DNA of 31,624 nt, taken from the IMG/VR virus record IMGVR_UViG_3300025276_000124, positions 1-31,624 of that record; one strand, written 5' to 3'. The notes under the pieces are model-generated. The model was not told the DNA's origin, ran no database searches, and was given only the letters and a program-made list of their open reading frames with translations. The stretch comes from a virus. Below are positions 10,563-24,104 of the stretch, in pieces (positions within the stretch are counted from its first letter, which is position 1; every line of letters begins with the position of its first letter). A program made the position numbers and the translations under genes.

Positions 10563-11690
10563 ATGCAGAAATTCAAAAGGTGGCTAAACGAAGTGGCAAC
10601 ATTCAGTCCTAAAAACTTTCCCTCAGGACCTGGTAACAATAAAGATTTTACTGGTGCCGGAGAAAGAACTACGTATGCCCCAACCTCTCTAAACGACTAT
10701 AAATTCAAAGAAGGGTTTGTGGTTTCTAAGCCTACTAATATGTACCGAGAAGATGGTAGTATCAGACGGCAAATGAAGAAAGATGAGAAGGTATGGTTTA
10801 CTCTGCCTGCAACACTACATCGTTCAACAGAGTTTGGAATCACTAAACGCTCAACTCTTGCACCAGCTTCTCTTGTAGGATTTGATCAGAAGCCAGACGG
10901 CTACATAGCAATTAGTTCAGTTATTAAGCCAGCAGGTGCCAATCAGGGACGTGTAGGATCTGGTTCAGCTACGCAAGATATGGTAGCACAGCATGTTAAA
11001 GATATGGCATACAAGAAAGGTATTGAGGTAGAATCGGAGTTCAAAACTGCAAAGCCTGGTTCAACTATTCCCGATCTAGTAATGACTATCGCTAAGTCTG
11101 TCGTACAGTTCGAGATTAAGGGTGCTAATAATAGAACAGCTCCTATTACATTCTTTGACAAGTCAGTGAAAAGAGCAGGACGTAAAATTGATCTGATAGA
11201 AGAGATCGCTGATGTTTATATCAAGTTCTTGAAGGTCAAGAAAGAAAAGCCTGTGATTACTAAGTTCAGCGAAAAGGGTGACTTCTCTCAAGCTGGTAGT
11301 GTTAGTACTCTTATGAAAAGAGGCAAGTTTCCTCTAACCTTTGTAGGACTCATAGACTTTTTTCATGCACGTGACCCATCTATCGGATTAGCAGGTGATG
11401 AAGGTGTAGTAAAGTCTGGTAAACTTCCAAAAGAGTTTGCTATCAACGACAGCACGACTTTAACAGGTTTACGACAAGTTATCCTAGATCACTTCAAAGA
11501 CGGTGGAGATGATTACTTCGTCATACATAATAGATCAGGAGATGATGTTGAAATATATTATGTCGGAGGCGGCAAAGCAAAGAATGTTTTAAAAGCGCCA
11601 GCTCTTCCTAAGTTCAAATCATTTGTGTTAGCAACATACGGTGGTGCCTCTGGTGGCGCTACAAGAGTAGGATTAAAGATAAAACTATGA
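10563..11690 (+). CDS. Capsid-tagged protein with a PD-(D/E)xK nuclease-like core
   Basis: A 375-residue protein. The first ten residues, MQKFKRWLNE, fit the T4 capsid-targeting pattern with cleavage expected after E10. Near the middle, STIPDLVMTIAKS followed by VVQFEIKGAN gives P170-D171, then E184-x-K186, the spacing of PD-(D/E)xK nucleases; this is inference from a short motif. The C-terminal part (~255-375) ends with SFVLATYGGASGG and TRVGLKIKL, probably beta-rich. It is driven by a late promoter and overlaps the next gene by four bases (ATGA), so the two are probably made in fixed ratio. It could be a packaged nuclease or an anti-defence effector; a structural role with a chance motif is the alternative. 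Confidence 0.75.
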   Translation: MQKFKRWLNEVATFSPKNFPSGPGNNKDFTGAGERTTYAPTSLNDYKFKEGFVVSKPTNMYREDGSIRRQMKKDEKVWFTLPATLHRSTEFGITKRSTLAPASLVGFDQKPDGYIAISSVIKPAGANQGRVGSGSATQDMVAQHVKDMAYKKGIEVESEFKTAKPGSTIPDLVMTIAKSVVQFEIKGANNRTAPITFFDKSVKRAGRKIDLIEEIADVYIKFLKVKKEKPVITKFSEKGDFSQAGSVSTLMKRGKFPLTFVGLIDFFHARDPSIGLAGDEGVVKSGKLPKEFAINDSTTLTGLRQVILDHFKDGGDDYFVIHNRSGDDVEIYYVGGGKAKNVLKAPALPKFKSFVLATYGGASGGATRVGLKIKL

Positions 11691-12919
11691 AACGTTTAGC
11701 AACATATATAACCGAAGACAAAAATGTTCATATGGAACACCTCGAAGACAATCTGCTAAATGCTGGTGTTGATGGTGCCCGTGAGTCTATTAACTATCTA
11801 CGTGCATTGCGTGATATGTTAGCAGGTGATTCGAAAGCCGCTGTAAATGTCACAGTGAAGTGGGATGGTGCACCCGCAGTATTTGCAGGCAAAGATCCTT
11901 CTGATGGCAAGTTCTTTGTTGCTAAGAAGGGAATCTTTAATAAGAATCCTAAGGTCTATAAGACTATGAAGGATATCGATGATGATATCGCAAAGGGTGA
12001 TTTGAATGTTAAAATGAAGTTGGCACTGAAGCATTTGCCAGCATTGAATATTAGAGGGGTGATTCAAGGTGATTTCCTATATGCGAAGAAAGATTTACGA
12101 AAAACGAATATTGATGGAGAATCGTATATTACTTTCCATCCTAATACCATTGTTTATGCGATACCAGCGAAAAGCAAACTTGCTACACAAATCCTCGGAT
12201 CCGAGATCGGTGTGGTTTGGCACACTGAATACAGAGGTAAATCTTTTGAATCAATGTCTGCAAGTTTTGGAAAGGAGATCGCAAGCAATCTCAAAACGAA
12301 CAAATCAGTATGGTCAGTAGACGCAATATACAAAGACTTATCAGGCACAGCCACAATGACTAAAGCTGAGACTGCTCTAGTTACTGCTAGCCTATCTAAG
12401 GCAGGCAAACTGTTTAACACAATTAAACGAGCAACATTCGATGGCATTACAGAAAATCCAGAGTTGTTGGTTCGTACAAAGACCTTCATGAATGTTCAAG
12501 TTCGTGCAGGCGCAAAGATTGAAAATCCCTCAAAGTTCGTAACTGAGTTAATGGATTACATCTATGCATACTATCAGAAAGAGATTGATAAACTGAAGAC
12601 CGAGAAGGGTAAAGCTGGTAAAGAAGCAAAGCGCAAGGAAATATTATCCTATTTCTCTAATACTGACAAAGCACAGATCGTGGCTCTGTTTACTCTATAC
12701 AACCAGATCATAGATGCTAAGTTGACTATCATACGTAAGTTAGATAAAGCAAAGAACGTAGGTACATTCCTCAAGACTGCTGATGGTTACAAAGTGACGG
12801 AGCAAGAAGGTTTTGTTGCTATTGATCGTATGGGTAAGAATGCGGTTAAGCTAGTCGATAGACTACAGTTCTCTAAAGCCAACTTCAATGCTGATGTCAT
12901 AAAGGGCTGGCAGAAGTAA
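11687..12919 (+). CDS. Capsid-tagged protein with KxDG nucleotidyltransferase/ligase-like motif
   Basis: A 410-residue protein starting MKRLATYITE, which fits the capsid-targeting pattern. It then has a conserved-looking block (EHLEDNLLNAGVDGARESI) followed by VTVKWDGAPAVFAGKDP. The K58-W-D60-G61 matches motif I of covalent nucleotidyltransferases (DNA/RNA ligases). GVIQGDFLYAKKDL (124-137) could be motif III, and LLVRTKTFMNVQVR (~264-277) a later lysine motif. I recall this family as a conserved hypothetical of marine T4-like phages; ligase activity is an inference. It is coupled by an ATGA overlap to the nuclease-like gene upstream, which would suit a cut-and-seal or repair pair. Confidence 0.75.
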   Translation: MKRLATYITEDKNVHMEHLEDNLLNAGVDGARESINYLRALRDMLAGDSKAAVNVTVKWDGAPAVFAGKDPSDGKFFVAKKGIFNKNPKVYKTMKDIDDDIAKGDLNVKMKLALKHLPALNIRGVIQGDFLYAKKDLRKTNIDGESYITFHPNTIVYAIPAKSKLATQILGSEIGVVWHTEYRGKSFESMSASFGKEIASNLKTNKSVWSVDAIYKDLSGTATMTKAETALVTASLSKAGKLFNTIKRATFDGITENPELLVRTKTFMNVQVRAGAKIENPSKFVTELMDYIYAYYQKEIDKLKTEKGKAGKEAKRKEILSYFSNTDKAQIVALFTLYNQIIDAKLTIIRKLDKAKNVGTFLKTADGYKVTEQEGFVAIDRMGKNAVKLVDRLQFSKANFNADVIKGWQK

Positions 12920-14430: not shown

Positions 14431-17169
14431 ATGGAAAAAGTAATTGGACAAAAGTCAGACGAAAAGGCTATCGCTGATGAGCCCGAAGAAGAAAAGCCAG
14501 TAAAGACAAAAAAGAAAAGCGTAAAACAATCTAGTGAGGACGAACTCCTCAACAAGAACTCTATAGAAATCAATCCAAAATTGGAAGAAGCTGTCATGAG
14601 AACTGTTGTTCTCGGTTGGGGCAGAATGAATCCTATTACATCTGGACATGGAATTCTAGTAGATAAGATCAAAGACGTTGCTAGAAAGAACAAAGCAACT
14701 CCTCTCGTTTACATATCACACAGCCAAGACCCTAAGAAAAATCCACTCGATTATGACGATAAGATCATGATCGCAAAGAAGGCGTTTGGCAACAACATAA
14801 TTCAAAAATCCAAATCTAGAACTATTATCCAGATCATGCAAGAACTGGAAACTAGGTTTGAGAAGGTCATCCTCGTTGTAGGTGACGATAGAGTTAAACA
14901 ATTCGAAACTCTACTCAACAAGTACAACGGCAAAGACTACACACTAAAAGAGATCGAAATACAGTCTGCTGGTAAAAGAGCAGATCCAGATTCCGACTCA
15001 GCTAAAGATTTATCCGCTGCCAACATGTCTGCTTCTGTAATGCGTAAACTGGCATCCGAAGGTGACTTAGCTGGATTCAGTAAAGGTCTACCAAAGAAAC
15101 TTAAATCTGATGCACAAGATATCTACGACATGGTTCGTGGTGGCATGAAGATCGCTGAGATGATGGAAATTGACGAACTCGATGAAGCAATGGACATGCA
15201 ACAAAGGCGTGCCCGTTCACTACTAATGCGTAAGTACAAAGGTAAGATTGCCGCTGGTCGTAAGCGTATGGCTAAGAAAGCCGCTACTATGGACAAGCTA
15301 AGATCAAGAGCAAGAAAAGCCGCTATTAAAATTATTCGTAAGAAAATCGCAGGCAAGAAGGGCGTGAACTATGCCAAGCTTGGACCTGGCGAGAAGATGA
15401 TGATTGACAAACGTGTAGAGAAGAAGAAGTCTGCCGTTGATAAGATTGCTAAGAGACTCCTACCTATAGTGAGAAAAGCTGACATAGCAAAGAGAAGCAA
15501 GGTCAAAAAAGAAGATTTTGATATGGAGTTTGACAACTTTTTGAACGAGTCATTTAACAAGGACTTCGAACAGTTCATAGAAGAACATGCTACAAAGCGA
15601 CACCACAAGATGTTAAACGCAGACGGTACTATCAAAATAGACAAACGTTTTCGTGCATTCCGTGCTAAGAAGGACGCAGAGACTCAAATTGATGAGATTA
15701 CTATTAATACCGATGCAGAGAGAACTCTAAAGAAACAGCACAAAGATGATCGCCAGAACATGAGTCGAGATCATGAGCGTGAGATGGACGGGTTACTAAC
15801 ACGTGAACTGCGTAAGAAAGTGCGTCAAGTCAATAACAACAAAGAAGAGTTCGTAGACGAAAATGCTTTGATCAATTTTATTGAAGAGACCGCTAACGAT
15901 ATCTTTGACCAAGTAACATTAGATGAGCAGAAGATTGAGCAAAGTTTAGAAGCCAAGTCGATTAAGTCTGGAGTTGAATTAGAAATCATTCAGCACGTAT
16001 ACGAAGAGGCTATGGAAACATACGTTGAATCGGATACTATGGACATTCATCAATGGGCATTCTCATGCGTTAACGCTAGTATTGCTAACATGGACGAAGG
16101 CAAGAAGGGTGGACTATGGGATAACATTCATAAGAAGCGTAAGCGAATTAAGGCTGGCTCTAAAGAGAAAATGCGTAAGCCTGGTACAGACGGTGCTCCC
16201 ACTAATGACGATTTCGAGAACGCAAGATCAGAGGGATATTCATCTGACAGAAGTAAGAAGACTAAAGATACTCTTGCAAAACATGATAAGAGAATGATTA
16301 ACAAGTCTAGAGAATCTATCAAGAAGTACGGCAAGAAGGAAGATCAAGAAGTTGAAGAAGCTTGCTGGGATTCTCATAAACAAGTGGGCATGAAGAAGAA
16401 GAACGGTAAACAAGTTCCAAATTGTGTGCCTAAAGAAGATGTCAACGAAGCATTCGAAGCAATGTTATCCGAGAGAAGTCCCGCAGACATGATAAAAGAT
16501 AAGATGGGCAAAGTTGTACACAAGAAAGCTTACACACATGCACTAAAGACTCTTATGGATTTACTAGATCGTAAGAAGAAAGAAGCTAAAGGCAAAGGTA
16601 TGAGGCATGATGTTGCATACTATGCCGCACAAATTGCTAGAACCTATCCTAATTTCATTAGAGATAAAGTGTTAGCGTCTATGTTGCCAAAAAGCTACAT
16701 GCGAGAAGAGGGCGGTGCTGGTGATCAATCTACAGACAAAGTAACTAAACGTTACAAGAAAGACACTCCTGGTGAAAGCGTAAACGAAGCATTCGAGGCT
16801 ATGTTCAGTGAAGAAGTAACGCAGAAGCAGTTGAATGACTTAGAAAAGTTTGGTGATCGCCTACTTGCTAAATACGGTATTGACATCGAATTCACTCGAC
16901 ACTTCGCTGATCGTATGAATGATGCACGTAACAAGCCAGCTATTACTGTAGCAGAGTTACAGAAAGTATTTAAGAAGATCGCTAAAAGAAAAGCAAAAGA
17001 GATCAGACAGAACCCTGACAGTGAAGCAGTGTTGAAAGACATGCAAGCTGATTTGAATCTGCCTATCGTTATAAACTATGACAAGAAGAAAGACGAATAC
17101 GAAGTGGTTAACAAGACCATCATGCGTAAGAAGAACTTCGGTACTAGCGATAAAGTGATTGAAGTATGA
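14431..17169 (+). CDS. Multidomain head polyprotein with nucleotidyltransferase domain
   Basis: A 912-residue modular protein. Residues ~57-230 form a complete HxGH-type nucleotidyltransferase: GRMNPITSGHGIL (64-75, TSGH at the HxGH place) and the distal MSASVMRK (199-206), equivalent to ISxTxxR. (L/I)-x-E sites flank it: KLEE|A (cut after 53) and ELDE|A (after 252). Next comes a very basic segment (~255-360, RSRARKAAIKIIRKKIAGKK). Then come tag-like peptides FDNFLNE (367-373), FEQFIEE (379-385), INFIEE (481-486), NEAFEAMLSE (672-681) and NEAFEAMFSE (785-794). A small module, CWDSHKQVGMKKKNGKQVPN (645-664), precedes a helical module (685-757). The C-terminal ~100 residues (EFTRHFADRMNDARN onward) are a module I recall from other phages. 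I infer a head protein cut by the prohead protease. Confidence 0.8.
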   Translation: MEKVIGQKSDEKAIADEPEEEKPVKTKKKSVKQSSEDELLNKNSIEINPKLEEAVMRTVVLGWGRMNPITSGHGILVDKIKDVARKNKATPLVYISHSQDPKKNPLDYDDKIMIAKKAFGNNIIQKSKSRTIIQIMQELETRFEKVILVVGDDRVKQFETLLNKYNGKDYTLKEIEIQSAGKRADPDSDSAKDLSAANMSASVMRKLASEGDLAGFSKGLPKKLKSDAQDIYDMVRGGMKIAEMMEIDELDEAMDMQQRRARSLLMRKYKGKIAAGRKRMAKKAATMDKLRSRARKAAIKIIRKKIAGKKGVNYAKLGPGEKMMIDKRVEKKKSAVDKIAKRLLPIVRKADIAKRSKVKKEDFDMEFDNFLNESFNKDFEQFIEEHATKRHHKMLNADGTIKIDKRFRAFRAKKDAETQIDEITINTDAERTLKKQHKDDRQNMSRDHEREMDGLLTRELRKKVRQVNNNKEEFVDENALINFIEETANDIFDQVTLDEQKIEQSLEAKSIKSGVELEIIQHVYEEAMETYVESDTMDIHQWAFSCVNASIANMDEGKKGGLWDNIHKKRKRIKAGSKEKMRKPGTDGAPTNDDFENARSEGYSSDRSKKTKDTLAKHDKRMINKSRESIKKYGKKEDQEVEEACWDSHKQVGMKKKNGKQVPNCVPKEDVNEAFEAMLSERSPADMIKDKMGKVVHKKAYTHALKTLMDLLDRKKKEAKGKGMRHDVAYYAAQIARTYPNFIRDKVLASMLPKSYMREEGGAGDQSTDKVTKRYKKDTPGESVNEAFEAMFSEEVTQKQLNDLEKFGDRLLAKYGIDIEFTRHFADRMNDARNKPAITVAELQKVFKKIAKRKAKEIRQNPDSEAVLKDMQADLNLPIVINYDKKKDEYEVVNKTIMRKKNFGTSDKVIEV

Positions 17170-17591
17170 AGAAGTTTAAATCATACATCTCTGAGTTAAA
17201 AGTTGAGATACCATCCATGACACTTGGTATCAGTAGAGATAAGATGCCTCAAGTCAAGTCTAAAGACTACGATGAGTTGATTAAGCATCTAAATAAGAAT
17301 GGTGTACGTGTGACGAAGAAATCTGTTAAGGCTAGTACGTTAAAAGCTACACAGAAAGACTTCAACGTAGACAAAATTGTCGGAGCTATTTCCAAGATTA
17401 AAACCATTGGTACAGCAAAGCCACTCATAGTGAGTTCAGATAATTATATTATCGATGGGCATCACAGATGGCTAGCGGCAAAGAATGTAGGTGACAGCAT
17501 ATCTATTATGCAGTCTAACGTTAAAGTGAAAGAACTATTGAAGCACGTTTACAGTTTCCCGAAAACTTTCGCAAAAGGAATAAATGAATAA
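17166..17591 (+). CDS. Capsid-tagged ParB/Srx-like protein
   Basis: A 141-residue protein overlapping the polyprotein gene by four bases (ATGA). It begins MKKFKSYISE, fitting the capsid-targeting pattern with a cut after E10. The rest looks like a ParB/sulfiredoxin-type domain: KMPQVKSKDYDELIKHL near 26-42 and the core NYIIDGHHRWLAAKN at 93-107, where D97-G98-H99-H100-R101 is the family signature. Such domains bind nucleotides (CTPase, Srx-like) or act as nucleases. No partition partner is visible, so chromosome segregation is unlikely; a packaged enzyme is my inference. Confidence 0.8.
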   Translation: MKKFKSYISELKVEIPSMTLGISRDKMPQVKSKDYDELIKHLNKNGVRVTKKSVKASTLKATQKDFNVDKIVGAISKIKTIGTAKPLIVSSDNYIIDGHHRWLAAKNVGDSISIMQSNVKVKELLKHVYSFPKTFAKGINE

Positions 17592-18487
17592 TGTTTTGGA
17601 AAAAGAAAAATAAAATGGATAAGATACTAACTAAAGATATGCTTGCCGCAATGATACCTGGTAATGATAAGGTGGATATGTGGTTTGAAGCAATCGAAGA
17701 AGTCTTCCCTAAGTATGAAATTAATACAATGGAAAGAGTTGCGGGCTTTATCTCGCAGTGTGCCCACGAGTCAAATAACTTTAGGTCTCTTGAAGAGAAT
17801 CTGAACTACAGCGAAGATGCTCTCGGAAGAGTATTTGGTCGTTACTTTGGCACTGGTGGTACAAAGAGAAATGCCGCAGAATACGCACGTAACCCTAAGA
17901 TGATTGCTAACTATGTCTATATGGATGAGTTCCGCAAATACAAAATGGGTAACGTAAAAGAAGGAGACGGTTGGTTGTTTAGAGGTCGTGGACTGAAGCA
18001 ACTTACTGGTCGTGAGAACTATACCAAATTCGGTAAGTCGATTGATATGACAGCAGAAGATGCCGCTGAATATGTTTCTACTGAAAAGGGCGCTATTGAA
18101 AGTGCTTGCTGGTTCTGGAGCAACAAGAAATTGAATGCTATTGCAGACACAGGTAACGTAAAGAAATTGACTAAAGTCATTAACGGTGGAGATATTGGTC
18201 TAGCTGACCGTACTTCTCGTTATGAAAGTGCAATAGAAATACTGGGTGGTAAAGTAAGTAAGAAGTCACCTAACTGGGGAGCATCTAAAACAACTACAGC
18301 GCATGTAACAATATCAGTAGGCGACAACAATGATACTGTTAAAGCAGTTCAGCTTAAACTAGGTCTAACAGGTGATGGAATATTTGGACCAGGTACTAAA
18401 AGAGCCATAAAAGCGTATCAAGCAAAAAATGGTTTAACCGCTGACGGCATTGCCGGTCCAGCCACACTCAAAAAACTATTAGGATAG
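17591..18487 (+). CDS. Endolysin: GH19 glycosidase plus peptidoglycan-binding domain
   Basis: A 298-residue cell-wall hydrolase. The N-terminal ~220 residues are a glycoside hydrolase family 19 (chitinase/lysozyme-like) domain. It has the catalytic glutamate E60 in SQCAHESNNFRSLEENL, the second acid E69, and the substrate loop GWLFRGRGLKQLTGRENY (127-144). The C-terminal ~60 residues (VKAVQLKLGLTGDGIFGPGT then KRAIKAYQAKNGLTADGI) are a PG_binding_1 domain. There is no signal peptide, so release needs a holin. The ATG at 17591 overlaps the previous stop by one base; ATG 17615 is an alternative. It could serve host lysis or act in the virion at entry, since it sits among head-type genes. Confidence 0.92.
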   Translation: MFWKKKNKMDKILTKDMLAAMIPGNDKVDMWFEAIEEVFPKYEINTMERVAGFISQCAHESNNFRSLEENLNYSEDALGRVFGRYFGTGGTKRNAAEYARNPKMIANYVYMDEFRKYKMGNVKEGDGWLFRGRGLKQLTGRENYTKFGKSIDMTAEDAAEYVSTEKGAIESACWFWSNKKLNAIADTGNVKKLTKVINGGDIGLADRTSRYESAIEILGGKVSKKSPNWGASKTTTAHVTISVGDNNDTVKAVQLKLGLTGDGIFGPGTKRAIKAYQAKNGLTADGIAGPATLKKLLG

Positions 18488-18491
18488 AACG

Positions 18492-18779
18492 ATGAAAACA
18501 TTCAGCAAATTTGTTTTAGAAGAGAAAGACCCAAGCGAGTATGATAACGAAGGTAGAATGGCAGAAGGCCAACTTACCACTATTATCGATGCCGCTGAAG
18601 ACTTAATTGACATGATCGAAGATGAAGATAATCTTCCTGAATGGTGTCAAAGCAAAATCACTAAAGCTACAGACTATATAGATTCCGTTAGGGATTACAT
18701 GAAGTCTGACAAGCGTGATGATGCTAATGAGTCTTTTGAATTTGCTTTTGGTGAGAGTGCTGATGAAGTCATTTCGTAA
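18492..18779 (+). CDS. Small capsid-tagged protein
   Basis: A 95-residue acidic protein starting MKTFSKFVLE, the closest fit to the T4 capsid-targeting sequence MKTYQEFIAE in this window. The body (GRMAEGQLTTIIDAAEDLID then LPEWCQSKITKATDYIDSVR) is a helical module that I recall as recurring in marine phage proteins. The end, ANESFEFAFGESADE, resembles the NEAFEAM(L/F)SE tag inside the polyprotein at 14431. It follows the endolysin by four bases. It probably belongs to the internal head protein group; no enzymatic motif is seen. Confidence 0.75.
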   Translation: MKTFSKFVLEEKDPSEYDNEGRMAEGQLTTIIDAAEDLIDMIEDEDNLPEWCQSKITKATDYIDSVRDYMKSDKRDDANESFEFAFGESADEVIS

Positions 18780-19095
18780 TTACATAAAAGAAGATTGCAA
18801 TTGCGAAGAACTCGTTCTAGAAGAGAGTGAGTATGAAGGACGTAAGGTTACGCTGAATGACCCTTTTCGTCTTCCTACTGGCTCAAAGAAAAAATTTGGA
18901 GTTTATGTCAATAATGAAAAAGGCAATGTTGTTAAGGTAACCTTTGGTGATCCTAACATGGAAATAAAGCGAGACGATCCAGGTCGCCGTGCTTCGTTTC
19001 GTGCCCGTCATGGATGTGATACTCCTGGTCCAAAGTGGAAAGCCAAGTACTGGTCGTGCTATCAATGGCGTGCTGGATCTAAGGTAGATAACTGA
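18763..19095 (+). CDS. Capsid-tagged protein with FRARH...YWSC module
   Basis: A 110-residue protein overlapping the previous gene by 17 bases. I start at ATG 18763 because this gives MKSFRNYIKE, again the capsid-targeting pattern; the longer frame from 18715 adds only a hydrophobic stretch read from the neighbour. After the tag, residues ~26-104 carry VTLNDPFRLPTGSKKKFGVY, KVTFGDPNMEIKRDDPGRR, then FRARHGCDTPGP and KYWSCYQW. I recall this module from many phage head proteins and protease-linked proteins; its C, H and C residues could bind a metal. The exact role is unknown; it is inferred to be packaged. Confidence 0.75.
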   Translation: MKSFRNYIKEDCNCEELVLEESEYEGRKVTLNDPFRLPTGSKKKFGVYVNNEKGNVVKVTFGDPNMEIKRDDPGRRASFRARHGCDTPGPKWKAKYWSCYQWRAGSKVDN

Positions 19096-19131: not shown

Positions 19132-19911
19132 ATGTTTAAAAAAGCGAAAGATATAACCCCACTGCACCCAGGTATGGCAGATGCTATGGGCGCACAACTA
19201 GCCAAACAAGGGTTTAAATCACCTGAAGCACCCGCTGTTGTAGAAGAGCCTGCTGTTGAAGTGTCACCAGAGCCAATCGAAGAAGCGACAGATGGACATA
19301 AAGACAGACATGCTGATAAAAAAGACGGTGATAAGAAGAAGCCAGTAGTGACAGACGTTACTCCTGAGATCGGCTTAATCGGCGATAAAGACAAGGCTGC
19401 AAAGTCTGTAATGACTGCTGTTAAAGGCGCATCTAAGGCTACAGAAATTAAAGCAAGCTACGAATCTACAGAGCATAGCGATGAGATGACTGAAGCGACT
19501 ATCACTGTAAAAGATTTCACTGGTAAAGCACCAGCTGGTATCAAGATGAAGAAGCTTGGCTCTTCAAGCTTTGGCGGTGATGACGTAGAGATGTCTGGTC
19601 CAGATGCAAAACTCATTGCATACGCAAAGAAGAGTCTTGGTTGTGATGCTAAGTGTAAAACAATCGCAGACGTTCAAAAGTCTATAAGCGAAATGTACGA
19701 GAGTAAGTGCTCCAGCGAAGACGTTGCTGAAGATAACACTAACAAGAAATCTGATGATGGCGAAGGATTGGACAAAGTTCAGCCTAAAGCTGTTAAGAAG
19801 AAGTTCGTCAACCGTCTAGATAAAGATATCGACAACGATGGCGACACTGATGACTCGGATGAATATTTGCACCGTCGCCGTAAAGCCGTAGCCAAAGCAC
19901 TGGAGGATTAA
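19132..19911 (+). CDS. Probable head protein with EF-hand-like calcium loop
   Basis: A 259-residue modular protein. The N-terminus (MFKKAKDITPLHPGMADAMG) is followed by an acidic, proline-rich linker with one (L/I)-x-E site, PIEE|A (cut after 51). A short domain at ~122-190 contains ITVKDFTGKAPAGIKMKKL and SLGCDAKCKTIADV. The C-terminus carries DIDNDGDTDDSDEY (232-245), which fits an EF-hand or dockerin-type Ca2+ loop with D232, D234, D236, G237 and E244, then a basic helix (LHRRRKAVAKALED). I recall this C-terminal block from other marine phage proteins. GGAG at 19120-19123 supports the ATG. Its neighbours suggest an internal or accessory head protein; calcium binding is inferred from the motif. 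Confidence 0.7.
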   Translation: MFKKAKDITPLHPGMADAMGAQLAKQGFKSPEAPAVVEEPAVEVSPEPIEEATDGHKDRHADKKDGDKKKPVVTDVTPEIGLIGDKDKAAKSVMTAVKGASKATEIKASYESTEHSDEMTEATITVKDFTGKAPAGIKMKKLGSSSFGGDDVEMSGPDAKLIAYAKKSLGCDAKCKTIADVQKSISEMYESKCSSEDVAEDNTNKKSDDGEGLDKVQPKAVKKKFVNRLDKDIDNDGDTDDSDEYLHRRRKAVAKALED

Positions 19912-19913
19912 TA

Positions 19914-21839
19914 GTGACTGACAATATGCAAGAAAAGTTTGATCCAGCGGATCACGATCTAGTAGCCACTGATAAGGATAAAGCATCAGCTAAGTTGAAT
20001 ATTGTCATGCAGTTGCGTAAGGCAATGGATGTCAGAGGTAATATGGCTATTACCTTTGCTGACGGTAAGAAGCAGAAGATCCCAATGAACATCATGAAGA
20101 TCGCTTTGGACAAGTTTGCTGGTGTACGTAAGCCAGCTTCCAAACAGAAGATGCAGGATGCTATGGGCAAATCATACAAAGACATGATCATGACACTTAA
20201 GACTTTCAAAGAAGAAGTTGAACTAGACGAAGCTGCCCAAGCAACATGGGAAGTTACAGTTGCTAAGGGAATCAATAAGCTAAAGAAGGGTCAGACTGTT
20301 AAAGTTAAAGCTCGTAATACAGCAGAAGCTTTGACCAAAGGCGCTAAAGCTTTAGGTGATCCAATGGCAAATAAAGGTCCAACAGGAACTCTTACAGTCA
20401 AAAAGTTGAATGAGTCTAATCTTGATGAGTATGGCTATCAGGACACGTTGTCTGCTAACGTAGATAAAGTAAAAATCCAGAAGCAGATCGATCAAGCTGA
20501 GAAGTACATGAAGACCTTCTTTGGTAACACATCTTCAGTTAAAATGAAGAAAGTTGCTATCCAGAAGAAAATCGAAAAACTTAAGGCACAGCTAAAAGAA
20601 GAGAATAGTCTTGATCACGAGATGATCATGGTAGAAGCCATGAAGCATAAGATGGTCAAAGGTGTTGCTCATATTAGCAAAGCAAACTTCCGTAAGACGC
20701 ACAATGACTTTAAAGGCACTGCAAAGGGCAAAGAAAGTCTTCTAGTATTTGATCCTAAGAGAGGCACTATCTCTGTCCCAGTACATTTTACTGAAGAAGT
20801 AGAATTAGACGAAGGCAGGATGAAAGAACTTCATGGCTATATCAGCAAAGGTAAGACTGCTGAGTGGATTGCTAAGAAGATGGGCTTCGATGTTAAAGAT
20901 ATTCAATCTTTAATGGATGAAGAAGTCGATCTAGAAGAAGGGTTCTCTCCTAGAGAAGTTAAGATGGCAATTGGTGTTGCATCAGATAAGAGATATGCTG
21001 GTGGTAACATGACAGGTGCTATTAACGCTATTGAGAAGATCAAGAAGGGTTTGTCTGATCAACCACAAGTTAAAGCTGTTCTTAAAAGACAGAACGAATC
21101 ACTTGACGAAGCAAAGGAATTAACGTATACTGTAGTTCATGCTAAGAAAGGTAAATTGGTTGTGAAAGCTACTACGTCATACGATGCCGCAATGAAGGGT
21201 GCTAAACAGTGGAAATTAAAGTCTACTGCTGGGATTGATTCACATCTCATGAAAGAAGAGTACCTAACAGCAAAGAAGGCATCTGTTAAGCAACAAAAAG
21301 CAGTCAAAGCATTGACTAAGCTTGCTCTAGGTGGTAAGAATCCTGGAGTTGGATACACATCATCAGTTGCTAGTAATGGCGACTATGTTGTATATGACGG
21401 TGGAATGCGTATCATGGGTCGTCTTGCAAAAGGCAAATTCAAAGATCCTTTGAGTGAAGCAGTAAAGCCTGGCATATGTGAAGATTGTGGTTGCGAAATT
21501 GCAAACCCAGATCCAGCATGTAATTGTCAGACACACGCACACGATGAAAAAATGAACGAGTCTATTGATTTAGACGAAGCACCTAGTTATAAGCTATATC
21601 ACAACACATTTTCAGCGGCAGTGCAAGAAGCTATTGCAGTTGCTAAGAAGAAAGGTTTTGATGTAGATGAAGATGATTGGTCTAATAAAGTAGCAACAGG
21701 ACCTAGAAAGCCAGGCAAAGACAAGACTAATAGCTATTCTATTAAATTGTTAAAGAATGGTAAGGCTGTTAAGCAACTCTTACAGATACAAGTCTATAAC
21801 ATGGGCGCAAAATACGAACTGAACTGTTACGTACAGTAA
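19914..21839 (+). CDS. Modular head polyprotein with repeated (L/I)xE cleavage sites
   Basis: A 641-residue protein from a GTG start, supported by GGAGG at 19902-19906. Prohead-protease-type sites recur between modules: ELDE|A (cut after 106), NLDE|Y (172), ELDE|G (300), DLEE|G (342), SLDE|A (399) and DLDE|A (555). The modules between them differ: 107-165 beta-like, 173-228 helical and basic, 301-342 short, 343-399 helical, and 400-445 ending WKLKSTAGIDSHLM. Next is a cysteine cluster, CEDCGCEIANPDPACNCQTH (522-541), that could bind metal. The last module, 556-641, ends IQVYNMGAKYELNCYV. The usual x-x-(L/I)-(D/E)-E context and A or G after the cut match T4 gp21 specificity. I infer that it is processed into several peptides packed in the head. 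Confidence 0.8.
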   Translation: MTDNMQEKFDPADHDLVATDKDKASAKLNIVMQLRKAMDVRGNMAITFADGKKQKIPMNIMKIALDKFAGVRKPASKQKMQDAMGKSYKDMIMTLKTFKEEVELDEAAQATWEVTVAKGINKLKKGQTVKVKARNTAEALTKGAKALGDPMANKGPTGTLTVKKLNESNLDEYGYQDTLSANVDKVKIQKQIDQAEKYMKTFFGNTSSVKMKKVAIQKKIEKLKAQLKEENSLDHEMIMVEAMKHKMVKGVAHISKANFRKTHNDFKGTAKGKESLLVFDPKRGTISVPVHFTEEVELDEGRMKELHGYISKGKTAEWIAKKMGFDVKDIQSLMDEEVDLEEGFSPREVKMAIGVASDKRYAGGNMTGAINAIEKIKKGLSDQPQVKAVLKRQNESLDEAKELTYTVVHAKKGKLVVKATTSYDAAMKGAKQWKLKSTAGIDSHLMKEEYLTAKKASVKQQKAVKALTKLALGGKNPGVGYTSSVASNGDYVVYDGGMRIMGRLAKGKFKDPLSEAVKPGICEDCGCEIANPDPACNCQTHAHDEKMNESIDLDEAPSYKLYHNTFSAAVQEAIAVAKKKGFDVDEDDWSNKVATGPRKPGKDKTNSYSIKLLKNGKAVKQLLQIQVYNMGAKYELNCYVQ

Positions 21840-21890: not shown

Positions 21891-23036
21891 ATGGCATTAT
21901 GGGGAACAGTAGATACTTTGGCAGCAACGCCGAATGTATATACAAAAACGACAATTTTTGATGCAACAAGCACCGCAGTGGTAATTGCCGCATCAAATAC
22001 AATTAAACTAACAGCACACGGTTACTTAACAGGTGATGCAGTTGTATATAACGATGCAGGTGGAACCGTTATCGGTGGCTTGACAGATGCGGGTACCGTA
22101 TTCGTTAACCGAGTCGATGGCGACACTATTAAGTTATACACAACTAAAGCACATGCGGTAACTGGCCATGCATCAAACGGACTGAAAAGTATTAGTGGTG
22201 TCGGTGTAGGTGCAGGACATAACTTTGTTAAAGTGCCAGATGATTTGTACTTCGTTGATACAACGGAAGCAACTCAAGCGGCTAACACAGTTAAGGGAAT
22301 GAAAACTCCTGGTTGGAACAGGTACTCTACTAAGACAGTACCAGCAACAGTATTATCTTTTGATTCTACTGCTGTATCTCTAACCGATAACGTTGTTTTC
22401 GTTGGTAATCAACAAGTACTAATTAACGGCACATCAGTGGTTTACTCTAGAGGCGGTCAAACAATCGTAACTGGTTTAACAGACAACGCCGCAGTGTTTG
22501 TACATAACGTTGGTGCTGGCATGATTAAGCTATACGATACAGGCGCACGAGCTATTACTGGTGGAGCAACAGGTCTTAAGAACTTATCTGTCGTAGGTGT
22601 AGGATCACACACGCTTACAGCTTCAGACTCAGTAGTACGTGACGTTGTTGAATCAATTGTACCAATGAAGGTATCAGCCGCAACTGCTGGCGATGTCGGT
22701 GTTGACGGTACAGATGATGCATTGTTGTATGATAGAACAGTCAAAATTACAACTCAGCCTACGCAAGCTTCAGCAACAGTTAACTTAGCTGGCGATGCTA
22801 ACATCGTTCTAGCTGTAGTTGCTACAGCACTACCTGGTAACACAGGACTAGCGTATCAGTGGCAAGAAGATGGCTCGAACATCTCTGCAAGTGGTATTTA
22901 CACCAACGTAACAACTGCTACTATGACTATCACTGGAACCACTAATAACTTAGCTGGTAAAGTGTATCGTTGTGTAGTAAGTGCTACAGCGGCAGTCGAT
23001 CTAGCTTCTAGCGGCGTAACAGCAACACAGTCTTAA
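21891..23036 (+). CDS. Virion decoration/fibre-like protein with duplicated domain and Ig domain
   Basis: A 381-residue protein with low charge and many T, V, G and A residues, typical of phage surface proteins. Residues ~36-111 and ~166-241 are an internal duplication: each holds a VVY...(I/V)xGLT stretch, then (T/M)IKLY and A(V/I)TG, then a VGVG segment before H. The C-terminal ~100 residues form an Ig-like domain, with AYQWQEDGSNIS carrying the core tryptophan (W324) and GKVYRCVVSAT the C-terminal YxC strand (C361). Ig domains on phage heads, as in T4 Hoc, are thought to bind surfaces or glycans. It has its own late promoter and is followed by a terminator, so it is a single-gene unit, probably highly expressed. 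Confidence 0.8.
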   Translation: MALWGTVDTLAATPNVYTKTTIFDATSTAVVIAASNTIKLTAHGYLTGDAVVYNDAGGTVIGGLTDAGTVFVNRVDGDTIKLYTTKAHAVTGHASNGLKSISGVGVGAGHNFVKVPDDLYFVDTTEATQAANTVKGMKTPGWNRYSTKTVPATVLSFDSTAVSLTDNVVFVGNQQVLINGTSVVYSRGGQTIVTGLTDNAAVFVHNVGAGMIKLYDTGARAITGGATGLKNLSVVGVGSHTLTASDSVVRDVVESIVPMKVSAATAGDVGVDGTDDALLYDRTVKITTQPTQASATVNLAGDANIVLAVVATALPGNTGLAYQWQEDGSNISASGIYTNVTTATMTITGTTNNLAGKVYRCVVSATAAVDLASSGVTATQS

Positions 23037-23166: not shown

Positions 23167-23541
23167 ATGAAACTTGAGGAAGATAGCTTTTTGCTCTATG
23201 CGGCTAAGTATTATGATATACGAATGGCGGCAAGTGCTGACGAATTCTATGACGATCTAAAACGATTTCAACATTTGAAGAGATTGTTTAAAAGGTATGA
23301 GGAAGATGACGATCTTAAGGTAAGATTGATTATCAACCATTTGACGGTAATTTTTAATTGTTTCGGCAAAGAAGCTACACCAATGTTATTCTTCAAACTA
23401 GAAGACTATCATAGATCACTCAAGCCTTTTGTTATTATGTTGGGTTATATGCCTGACCTTATAGAATACGGAACTAACAAAATAATCAGTTCAGAGATAC
23501 CTCTGGACAATCATATTATAAAAGAGTTAAGAGCATTATGA
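23167..23541 (+). CDS. Conserved T4-like phage protein, unknown function
   Basis: A 124-residue protein (MKLEEDSFLLYAAKYYDIRM, then EEFYDDLKRF-type helix DEFYDDLKRFQHLKRLFKRY, then LKVRLIINHLTVIFNCFGKE). I recall close relatives throughout marine T4-like phages, always as a conserved hypothetical near structural or replication genes. It is mostly helical, with no catalytic motif and no membrane segment. It has a late promoter and overlaps the next gene by four bases (ATGA), which suggests the two proteins work together. Confidence 0.8.
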   Translation: MKLEEDSFLLYAAKYYDIRMAASADEFYDDLKRFQHLKRLFKRYEEDDDLKVRLIINHLTVIFNCFGKEATPMLFFKLEDYHRSLKPFVIMLGYMPDLIEYGTNKIISSEIPLDNHIIKELRAL

Positions 23542-24104
23542 TAGTTGACCTATTTTTAGTCTTTCAGTTTATTAAGCGTTTAAGTACTCCGTTCGTGGAA
23601 TGGAAGGCATACAAGCTTGGTATCATTGACGAAAGTGGCAAGCAACTAATCAAACGTACAAAGTTTACTACAAGAGAGCAGAAGGATGCATTCGGCATCT
23701 TTGATATAATGATTATGAAACTCAAGAGATTGCTAGAGAAGGTACCTGGTGGTAAATCCAGAATCGGCTCATATGCGGCTGCCTTATATCTTATCAAAGA
23801 ACATGATGAGATAGTAGATCAAGGAGAAATTCTCACGGAAGAGCAACTTGAGGTTAAACTAAACCTTTACATGGAACAAGTAAGTTCTAAAGACCCACAG
23901 ATGGTCAACCCAGATATGGATGCATTATTCGAAGCTATGTGGGACGAAGATGCACCAGCAAACAGCGCAGGCAGCGGTAACATTGCAGGCATTGGAGTTG
24001 GATCAGACGGAGAACCTGGCAGGCTGCCGAAGTTCCAGAAGAAAAAAAAGAGTAGCGTATTGAAGAGATTCAAAGACACTATTCCAACCACACCTAAAGG
24101 TTAA
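23538..24104 (+). CDS. Conserved phage protein with glycine-rich tail
   Basis: A 188-residue protein coupled to the previous gene. Residues ~1-90 are helical (LVFQFIKRLSTPFVEWKAYK then GIIDESGKQLIKRTKFTTRE and VPGGKSRIGSYAAALYLIKE). After ~125 it becomes a flexible tail, ANSAGSGNIAGIGVGSDGEP, then a basic end KKKKSSVLKRFKDTIP. I recall the NSAG-x-GNIAGIGVG-type tail from T4-like virion-associated proteins. No enzyme motif is seen. Late promoter control and the tail favour a virion or assembly role. Confidence 0.75.
   Translation: MIVDLFLVFQFIKRLSTPFVEWKAYKLGIIDESGKQLIKRTKFTTREQKDAFGIFDIMIMKLKRLLEKVPGGKSRIGSYAAALYLIKEHDEIVDQGEILTEEQLEVKLNLYMEQVSSKDPQMVNPDMDALFEAMWDEDAPANSAGSGNIAGIGVGSDGEPGRLPKFQKKKKSSVLKRFKDTIPTTPKG

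Follow-up and report, generated by a model that had tools for sequence, protein, structure and literature searches.

A likely gp21-processed, cassette-built internal-head polyprotein precursor in a marine T4-like virus

The locus and its modules

The DNA analysed here, referred to as the window, is a 31.6-kb fragment (31,624 nt) of the IMG/VR virus record IMGVR_UViG_3300025276_000124, and its genes are Kyanoviridae-like (marine T4-type): DNA polymerase B, DnaB, primase, NrdA/NrdB and endolysin. It carries an open reading frame (ORF) of 641 aa that divides into modules M1 to M9 (Table 1). The nearest isolate relatives across the ORF region are the cultured, T4-like Methylophilales phage Melnitz (EXVC039M/043M/044M) and phage C48C1, and a near-identity search of phage records with the region gave zero matches. 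Neither the whole protein nor its single modules matched anything in Pfam and PHROGs above cut-off, and only weak sub-threshold matches were seen, for M2 (phrog_30573, E 0.046) and M4 (HTH families, E 0.07-0.2).

Table 1 Features of the locus in window coordinates (↓, predicted cut)
Feature	Position	Strand	Description
375-aa protein	10563..11690	+	leader MQKFKRWLNE↓V
410-aa phrog_455 protein	11687..12919	+	possible leader MKRLATYITE↓D; conserved across Kyanoviridae
Sister multi-module protein, NTase (NMNAT/cytidylyltransferase-like)-RR-RGW-CW-AAD-DRM	14431..17169	+	several LxE junctions
141-aa ParB-like protein	17166..17591	+	leader MKKFKSYISE↓L
Small protein	18492..18779	+	leader MKTFSKFVLEE↓K
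YEG module as own gene	18763..19095	+	leader MKSFRNYIKE↓D
259-aa protein, DxDNDGD (EF-hand/dockerin-like) module	19132..19911	+	immediately preceding gene
641-aa modular ORF, candidate gp21-processed polyprotein	19914..21839	+	GTG start
M1 (1-106)	19914..20231	+	all-helical domain 20-107, pLDDT mostly 85-97
M2 (107-172)	20232..20429	+	basic; ends LNE167↓S / LDE172↓Y
M3a/M3b (173-300)	20430..20813	+	helical hairpin and poorly predicted part; ends ELDE300↓G
M4 (301-342)	20814..20939	+	HTH-like three-helix mini-domain (predicted), pLDDT mostly >90; ends DLEE342↓G
M5 (343-399)	20940..21110	+	most widespread module; ends SLDE399↓A
M6 (400-446)	21111..21251	+	small beta-beta-alpha piece
M7 (447-515)	21252..21458	+	only in this ORF; ends LSE515↓A; absent L006/L007
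M8 (516-555)	21459..21578	+	cysteine cluster, acidic, predicted disordered; ends DLDE555↓A
M9 (556-641)	21579..21836	+	alpha/beta domain; pLDDT 89 alone, mostly >90 in full model
Weak phrog_613 'head protein'	21891..23036	+	same gene-order position as S-SZBM1_136, virion-detected

Several neighbouring genes carry N-terminal sequences comparable to the T4 leaders MKTYQEFIAE (ipII and ipIII) and MKTFKEF (ipI). A capsid-targeting leader, that is, 10-19 aa ending at a site for the prohead protease gp21, is found on the genes starting at 10563, 17166, 18492 and 18763. A strict form of this leader pattern gave four matches in the window, all of them between 10.5 and 19.1 kb, and one among 589 Melnitz ORFs, at the same locus. 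The 641-aa ORF does not meet this definition: M1 opens with a short leader ending MQE7↓K, and the N-terminus as a whole, MTDNMQE↓KFDPAD, lacks the MK[TS][FY]xxF pattern. The endolysin gene (17591-18487), in the middle of the putative internal-protein cluster, is also without a targeting leader.

The same modules are found in different gene contexts. For M2, RR, RGW, YEG, DRM and NTase there are also versions in which the module is a gene of its own behind an MK[ST]F/MKxF-type leader; M2, for example, is a stand-alone gene of 67-68 aa at two other loci (L122 and L128), with an N-terminus, MK(S/T)FKE(L/I)RNE↓G, that resembles the T4 capsid-targeting sequence. The YEG module, its own gene in the window, forms the C-terminus of the NTase protein in other phages, including Melnitz, and the DxDNDGD module, here the separate preceding gene, shares one polypeptide with M5/M9 in other phages. 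Most modules are basic (pI 9-10, and above 9 in 8/10), which would fit DNA-associated internal proteins. A distant M1-like helical domain was also noted in a separate family near the primase gene (L002:21431-21949 and L105:4699-5106), of which 23538-24104 in the window is a candidate member.

Predicted cleavage sites and structure

T4 gp21 cleaves after L/I-X-E (PMC9026906). Judged by sequence alone, the 641-aa ORF has the (L/I)-x-E processing sites of a T4-type internal head protein. The motif L[DE]E occurs six times, as ELDE106↓A, LDE172↓Y (NLDE↓Y), ELDE300↓G, DLEE342↓G, SLDE399↓A and DLDE555↓A, against a mean expectation of 0.36, and none of 20,000 composition shuffles reached six. Likewise, [LIVM]xE[AG] was observed 8 times against a mean of 1.62 (8 reached in 2/20,000 composition shuffles), and EEV[ED]L[DE]E three times against a shuffle mean of ~0. 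This site-rich pattern is confined to the 641-aa ORF and the nearby NTase protein, and most remaining ORFs of the window have zero sites. Further sites of like type are MQE7↓K, LNE167↓S, LKE229↓E, MVE241↓A, MKE448↓E, LSE515↓A and MNE549↓S; those at 7, 167, 241, 448, 515 and 549, among others, are weaker than the six. Given that LxE matches at 229, 241, 305, 336 and 572 lie within predicted helices, the motif by itself is insufficient to define cuts.

We predicted the structure of the whole ORF with AlphaFold2 from a 33-row alignment. The whole-ORF model has a pTM of 0.32. It shows confident separate domains at 20-107, 108-165, part of 177-251, 300-340 and 557-641, is of low confidence outside them, and predicts a compact domain of 40-110 aa for at least five of the pieces. 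In the model, sites 172, 342, 399 and 555 lie in coil, and sites 106 and 300 lie at helix ends on domain edges. All six are thus in coil or within two residues of coil, compared with 68% for all bonds, which is only weakly above expectation and is a matter of consistency rather than proof. A Foldseek search with the whole model gave no significant match, only scattered HTH-like matches.

An initial annotation, made before any comparison with relatives, had described a 641-residue ORF with six sites after residues 106, 172, 300, 342, 399 and 555, and this held exactly. Its cysteine cluster is also present, in M8 at residues 522-538 (CEDCGCEIANPDPACNC), and recurs in phage Melnitz, where M8 is at a different position. 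The suggestion that the pieces are separate small domains is supported by the AlphaFold model for part of the protein, with low confidence elsewhere, and none of the six predicted cuts falls inside a compact fold in that model.

Two modules invite comment on their folds. The 42-aa M4 may be a minimal helix-turn-helix, a possibility that rests on sequence pattern and weak fold matches; if so, the head would contain a packaged protein that binds DNA sequence-specifically. For M9 no fold name was adopted: the best VIA-align Z was 5.2, to cystatin-like and PAS-like rows, which is too low and leaves only a distant cystatin-like arrangement.

Module borders, shuffling and the protease

Relatives at two loci (L006/L007) encode an 82% identical, 500-aa version that is without residues 301-342 and about 447-553. 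The deletion ends are at predicted sites, ELDE↓G(RMK..DLEE↓G)FS and LMKEE..LEE↓APSY, such that the whole of M4 is missing between its two flanking sites. In Melnitz, the modules are split across two adjacent genes (QZI94974/QZI94975) in a different order. Across 18 modules taken from this ORF and its neighbours we found 393 ORFs, 164 of them multi-module, with 81 distinct orders. A site is present at the junction in 335/425 embedded contexts (79%; sums over listed rows), compared with a null of 25%. The M1, CW, DRM and EF modules have lower junction-site rates than the others, probably in part because their models do not start at the true border.

The 53-aa module at residues 343-395 (M5) is present at no fewer than 235 IMG/VR loci. 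Upstream of it, in 44 distinct contexts, P1 is Glu in 44/44 and P3 is L/I/V/M in 43/44, with W in the remaining one, while P2 is mixed (D, R, E, A, Q, K, N, T, G). P1 was by definition the final Glu in the four residues before M5, and hence the informative figures are P3 and the free P2: P3 is L/I/V/M in 98% before M5, compared with 27% for the Glu residues of these proteins in general. The pattern of a hydrophobic P3, a free P2 and a P1 Glu is that of the T4 gp21 rule, an inference from sequence alone. At unrelated junctions (IRE, VRE, VAE, VQE, LNE, LGE), the hydrophobic P3 and P1 Glu are all that is kept, and P2 varies.

Borders were also examined without reference to individual modules. 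We located 1,411 homology breakpoints across a set of 57 non-redundant proteins; [LIVM]xE lay nearby in 54% compared with 24% at random positions, and L[DE]E in 23% compared with 8%; the controls [LIVM]xK, xD, xA and xQ showed no enrichment at these breakpoints. The breakpoints are non-independent, so z-scores cannot be read as probabilities, and the figures come from stricter BLAST settings, loose settings giving a weaker signal. The initial annotation had proposed a modular polyprotein cut by a prohead-type protease. Comparison with relatives supports this, given that, as modules appear, disappear and change order, their borders still fall at the sites; the cleavage itself and the presence of the products in virions remain inferred.

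The DNA of the EEVEL[DE]E linkers (window 20202-20231, 20793-20813 and 20919-20939, and related loci) is unusually uniform: 2.3 of 21 bases differ between proteins, compared with 3.8 predicted from codon use, and the commonest form is GAAGAAGTTGAACTTGATGAA. Hence, recombination at linkers held in common may account for some of the signal at module borders, and it is possible that EEVELDE sites serve as both protease sites and recombination patches. One alternative explanation is that EEVELDE-type junctions are merely acidic flexible linkers and recombination seams that permit domains to shuffle, and that the multidomain protein functions without being cut, whether in the cell or in the virion. 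The linker uniformity (2.3 against 3.8 differences) speaks for this, as does the fact that linkers are often copies of one sequence. However, a copied seam does not explain why P3 and P1 are kept while P2 changes at unrelated junctions, and the same pattern is found at the end of the leader where a module is a single gene, and at the end of the gp23 propeptide. We therefore regard the seam explanation as very unlikely, and processing by the prohead protease as the better account of the junctions.

The S77 protease gp21 (PF03420) is encoded by 7/12 of the longer module-bearing contigs, all seven of which also carry gp23, and by Melnitz, as QZI95154; the window fragment itself is without gp21. 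At several loci an LxE-type site closes the gp23 propeptide, examples being LSE↓A in Melnitz and LGE↓A at one further locus (L175).

These observations bear on a second alternative, in which the ORF is a polyvalent-type protein injected whole, with processing, if any, in the host or by another protease. Multidomain injected phage proteins with diverse domain orders are known (PMC5512222), and the ORF fits the description of polyvalent proteins as having 2-15 distinct domains per polypeptide in a variable architecture. With no Pfam domain above cut-off, it does not show their disparate enzymatic domains and often fused MPTase, although the neighbour at 14431-17169 has a nucleotidyltransferase. 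Against this alternative, a Pfam scan found no fused peptidase in the ORF, the sites follow the cleavage rule of the prohead protease, and gp21 is encoded on the contigs that carry the modules. Injection as an uncut polyvalent protein is therefore also very unlikely in our view.

Evidence from virions comes from a syntenic locus in cyanophage S-SZBM1, situated between the DNA primase/helicase gene and primase/NrdA. Three of its products, S-SZBM1 _136, _139 and _140, were identified by mass spectrometry in CsCl-purified virions (PMC9146016 Table 1). S-SZBM1_140 is a cytidylyltransferase with the leader MRFRQFIIE↓A, and NMNAT/cytidylyltransferase-like proteins have been reported in other cyanophage virions too (PMC10665884). 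S-SZBM1_139 contains a CW module; the CW type is the sole module it shares, though it is syntenic, and its cut sites are not given in the virion study (PMC9146016). These data support the locus as one of internal-head genes, but only through synteny, and they do not speak to the 641-aa protein directly. S-SZBM1_139 (L161, S-SZBM1 74000-85000) was noted to finish in a long histone-H1-like tail rich in Ala, Lys and Ser.

A third alternative is that the ORF encodes a core or scaffold component like T4 gp22, gp67 and gp68, which gp21 would shred so that the pieces exit the prohead to make room for DNA; the modules would then act before cleavage and not be delivered. In T4, gp22, gp67 and gp68 are broken down into small peptides, and these are presumed to escape (PMC9958956), and the missing capsid-targeting leader of the 641-aa ORF also favours this reading. 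However, the predicted compact domains are unlike degraded scaffold, some modules stand alone behind targeting leaders, most modules are basic and products of the syntenic locus persist in mature S-SZBM1 virions. Melnitz has its own gp22 as a separate gene, and the 641-aa ORF has no Pfam or PHROG match to T4_CASP/gp22. A degraded scaffold is thus unlikely, given that the pieces are predicted to fold, that they recur, and that some of them exist as single genes with targeting leaders.

A proposed internal-head precursor and known systems

The explanation we favour is that the 641-aa ORF is likely a gp21-processed, cassette-built internal-head polyprotein precursor. In this model, the precursor would enter the prohead core, where gp21 would cut it after (L/I/V/M)-x-E during head maturation, releasing about 6-10 small, mostly basic modules. 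These would stay with the DNA as internal head proteins and would probably be ejected along with it. The modules would be exchangeable cassettes with a protease site at every junction, and any one cassette could reside within a precursor or be encoded on its own behind a capsid-targeting leader. The sites, their coincidence with borders, the shuffling, the leader-bearing stand-alone genes and the presence of gp21 on the same contigs are observed directly in the sequences. Prohead entry, cutting, retention, ejection and module roles are inferred, and there are no proteomics for the protein or a close homologue. The missing N-terminal leader remains a point against the model, given that the neighbours match the capsid-targeting consensus.

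A bolder reading, towards which the evidence leans only slightly, is that marine T4-like phages draw on a common pool of small injectable head-protein cassettes, each with prohead-protease sites at its borders. By recombination, polyproteins would be built from these or single genes freed, refitting the early-injected set in one step, and the protease site would double as the domain-exchange junction. The internal head proteins of a phage reach the host before any of its other proteins, and T4 IPI can defeat host defences. If the model is true, many multi-module unknown proteins of marine T4-like viruses would be explained by protease-delimited shuffled cassettes, a cut after hydrophobic-x-Glu at module borders would be a sequence rule for the delivered pieces, and the cassettes would be a source of candidate anti-defence or host-takeover modules.

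Multi-site prohead-protease cutting, capsid-targeting leaders and multidomain injected proteins are each already known separately. We found no description of gp21-delimited exchangeable cassettes that are interchangeable with single targeted genes in the open literature searched, which leaves out subscription papers. In the head proteins of the giant phages phiKZ, 201phi2-1 and SPN3US, too, cleavage follows a short x-x-E motif, and in some of them it occurs more than once (PMC10052503, PMC9026906), but this mostly takes N-terminal propeptides off one mature protein (13/14 SPN3US sites), and no cassette exchange has been reported. Polyvalent proteins (Iyer et al. 2017, PMC5512222) have in common many domains per polypeptide, combinatorial architectures, proposed delivery with DNA and proposed processing. 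However, their processing is proposed to occur via fused zincin-like or assemblin-like peptidase domains, whereas here it would occur in trans by gp21 at short sites, and they are large enzymes, whereas the modules here are small and of unassigned function.

Closer parallels are found in T4. With gp22, gp67 and gp68, the common element is one precursor with many (L/I)-x-E sites inside the prohead, although cutting is inferred here; those proteins are degraded scaffold, whereas the 641-aa ORF has recurring folded modules with sites at junctions, not interiors. With IPI, IPII, IPIII and Alt, the system would share the protease family and cut rule, the leader type, found on neighbours and stand-alone modules, and mostly basic products. 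The T4 internal proteins have a capsid-targeting leader, whereas the 641-aa ORF is without a clear one, and each T4 gene gives one mature protein by one N-terminal cut, whereas here there are many modules per ORF, with a site at each junction.
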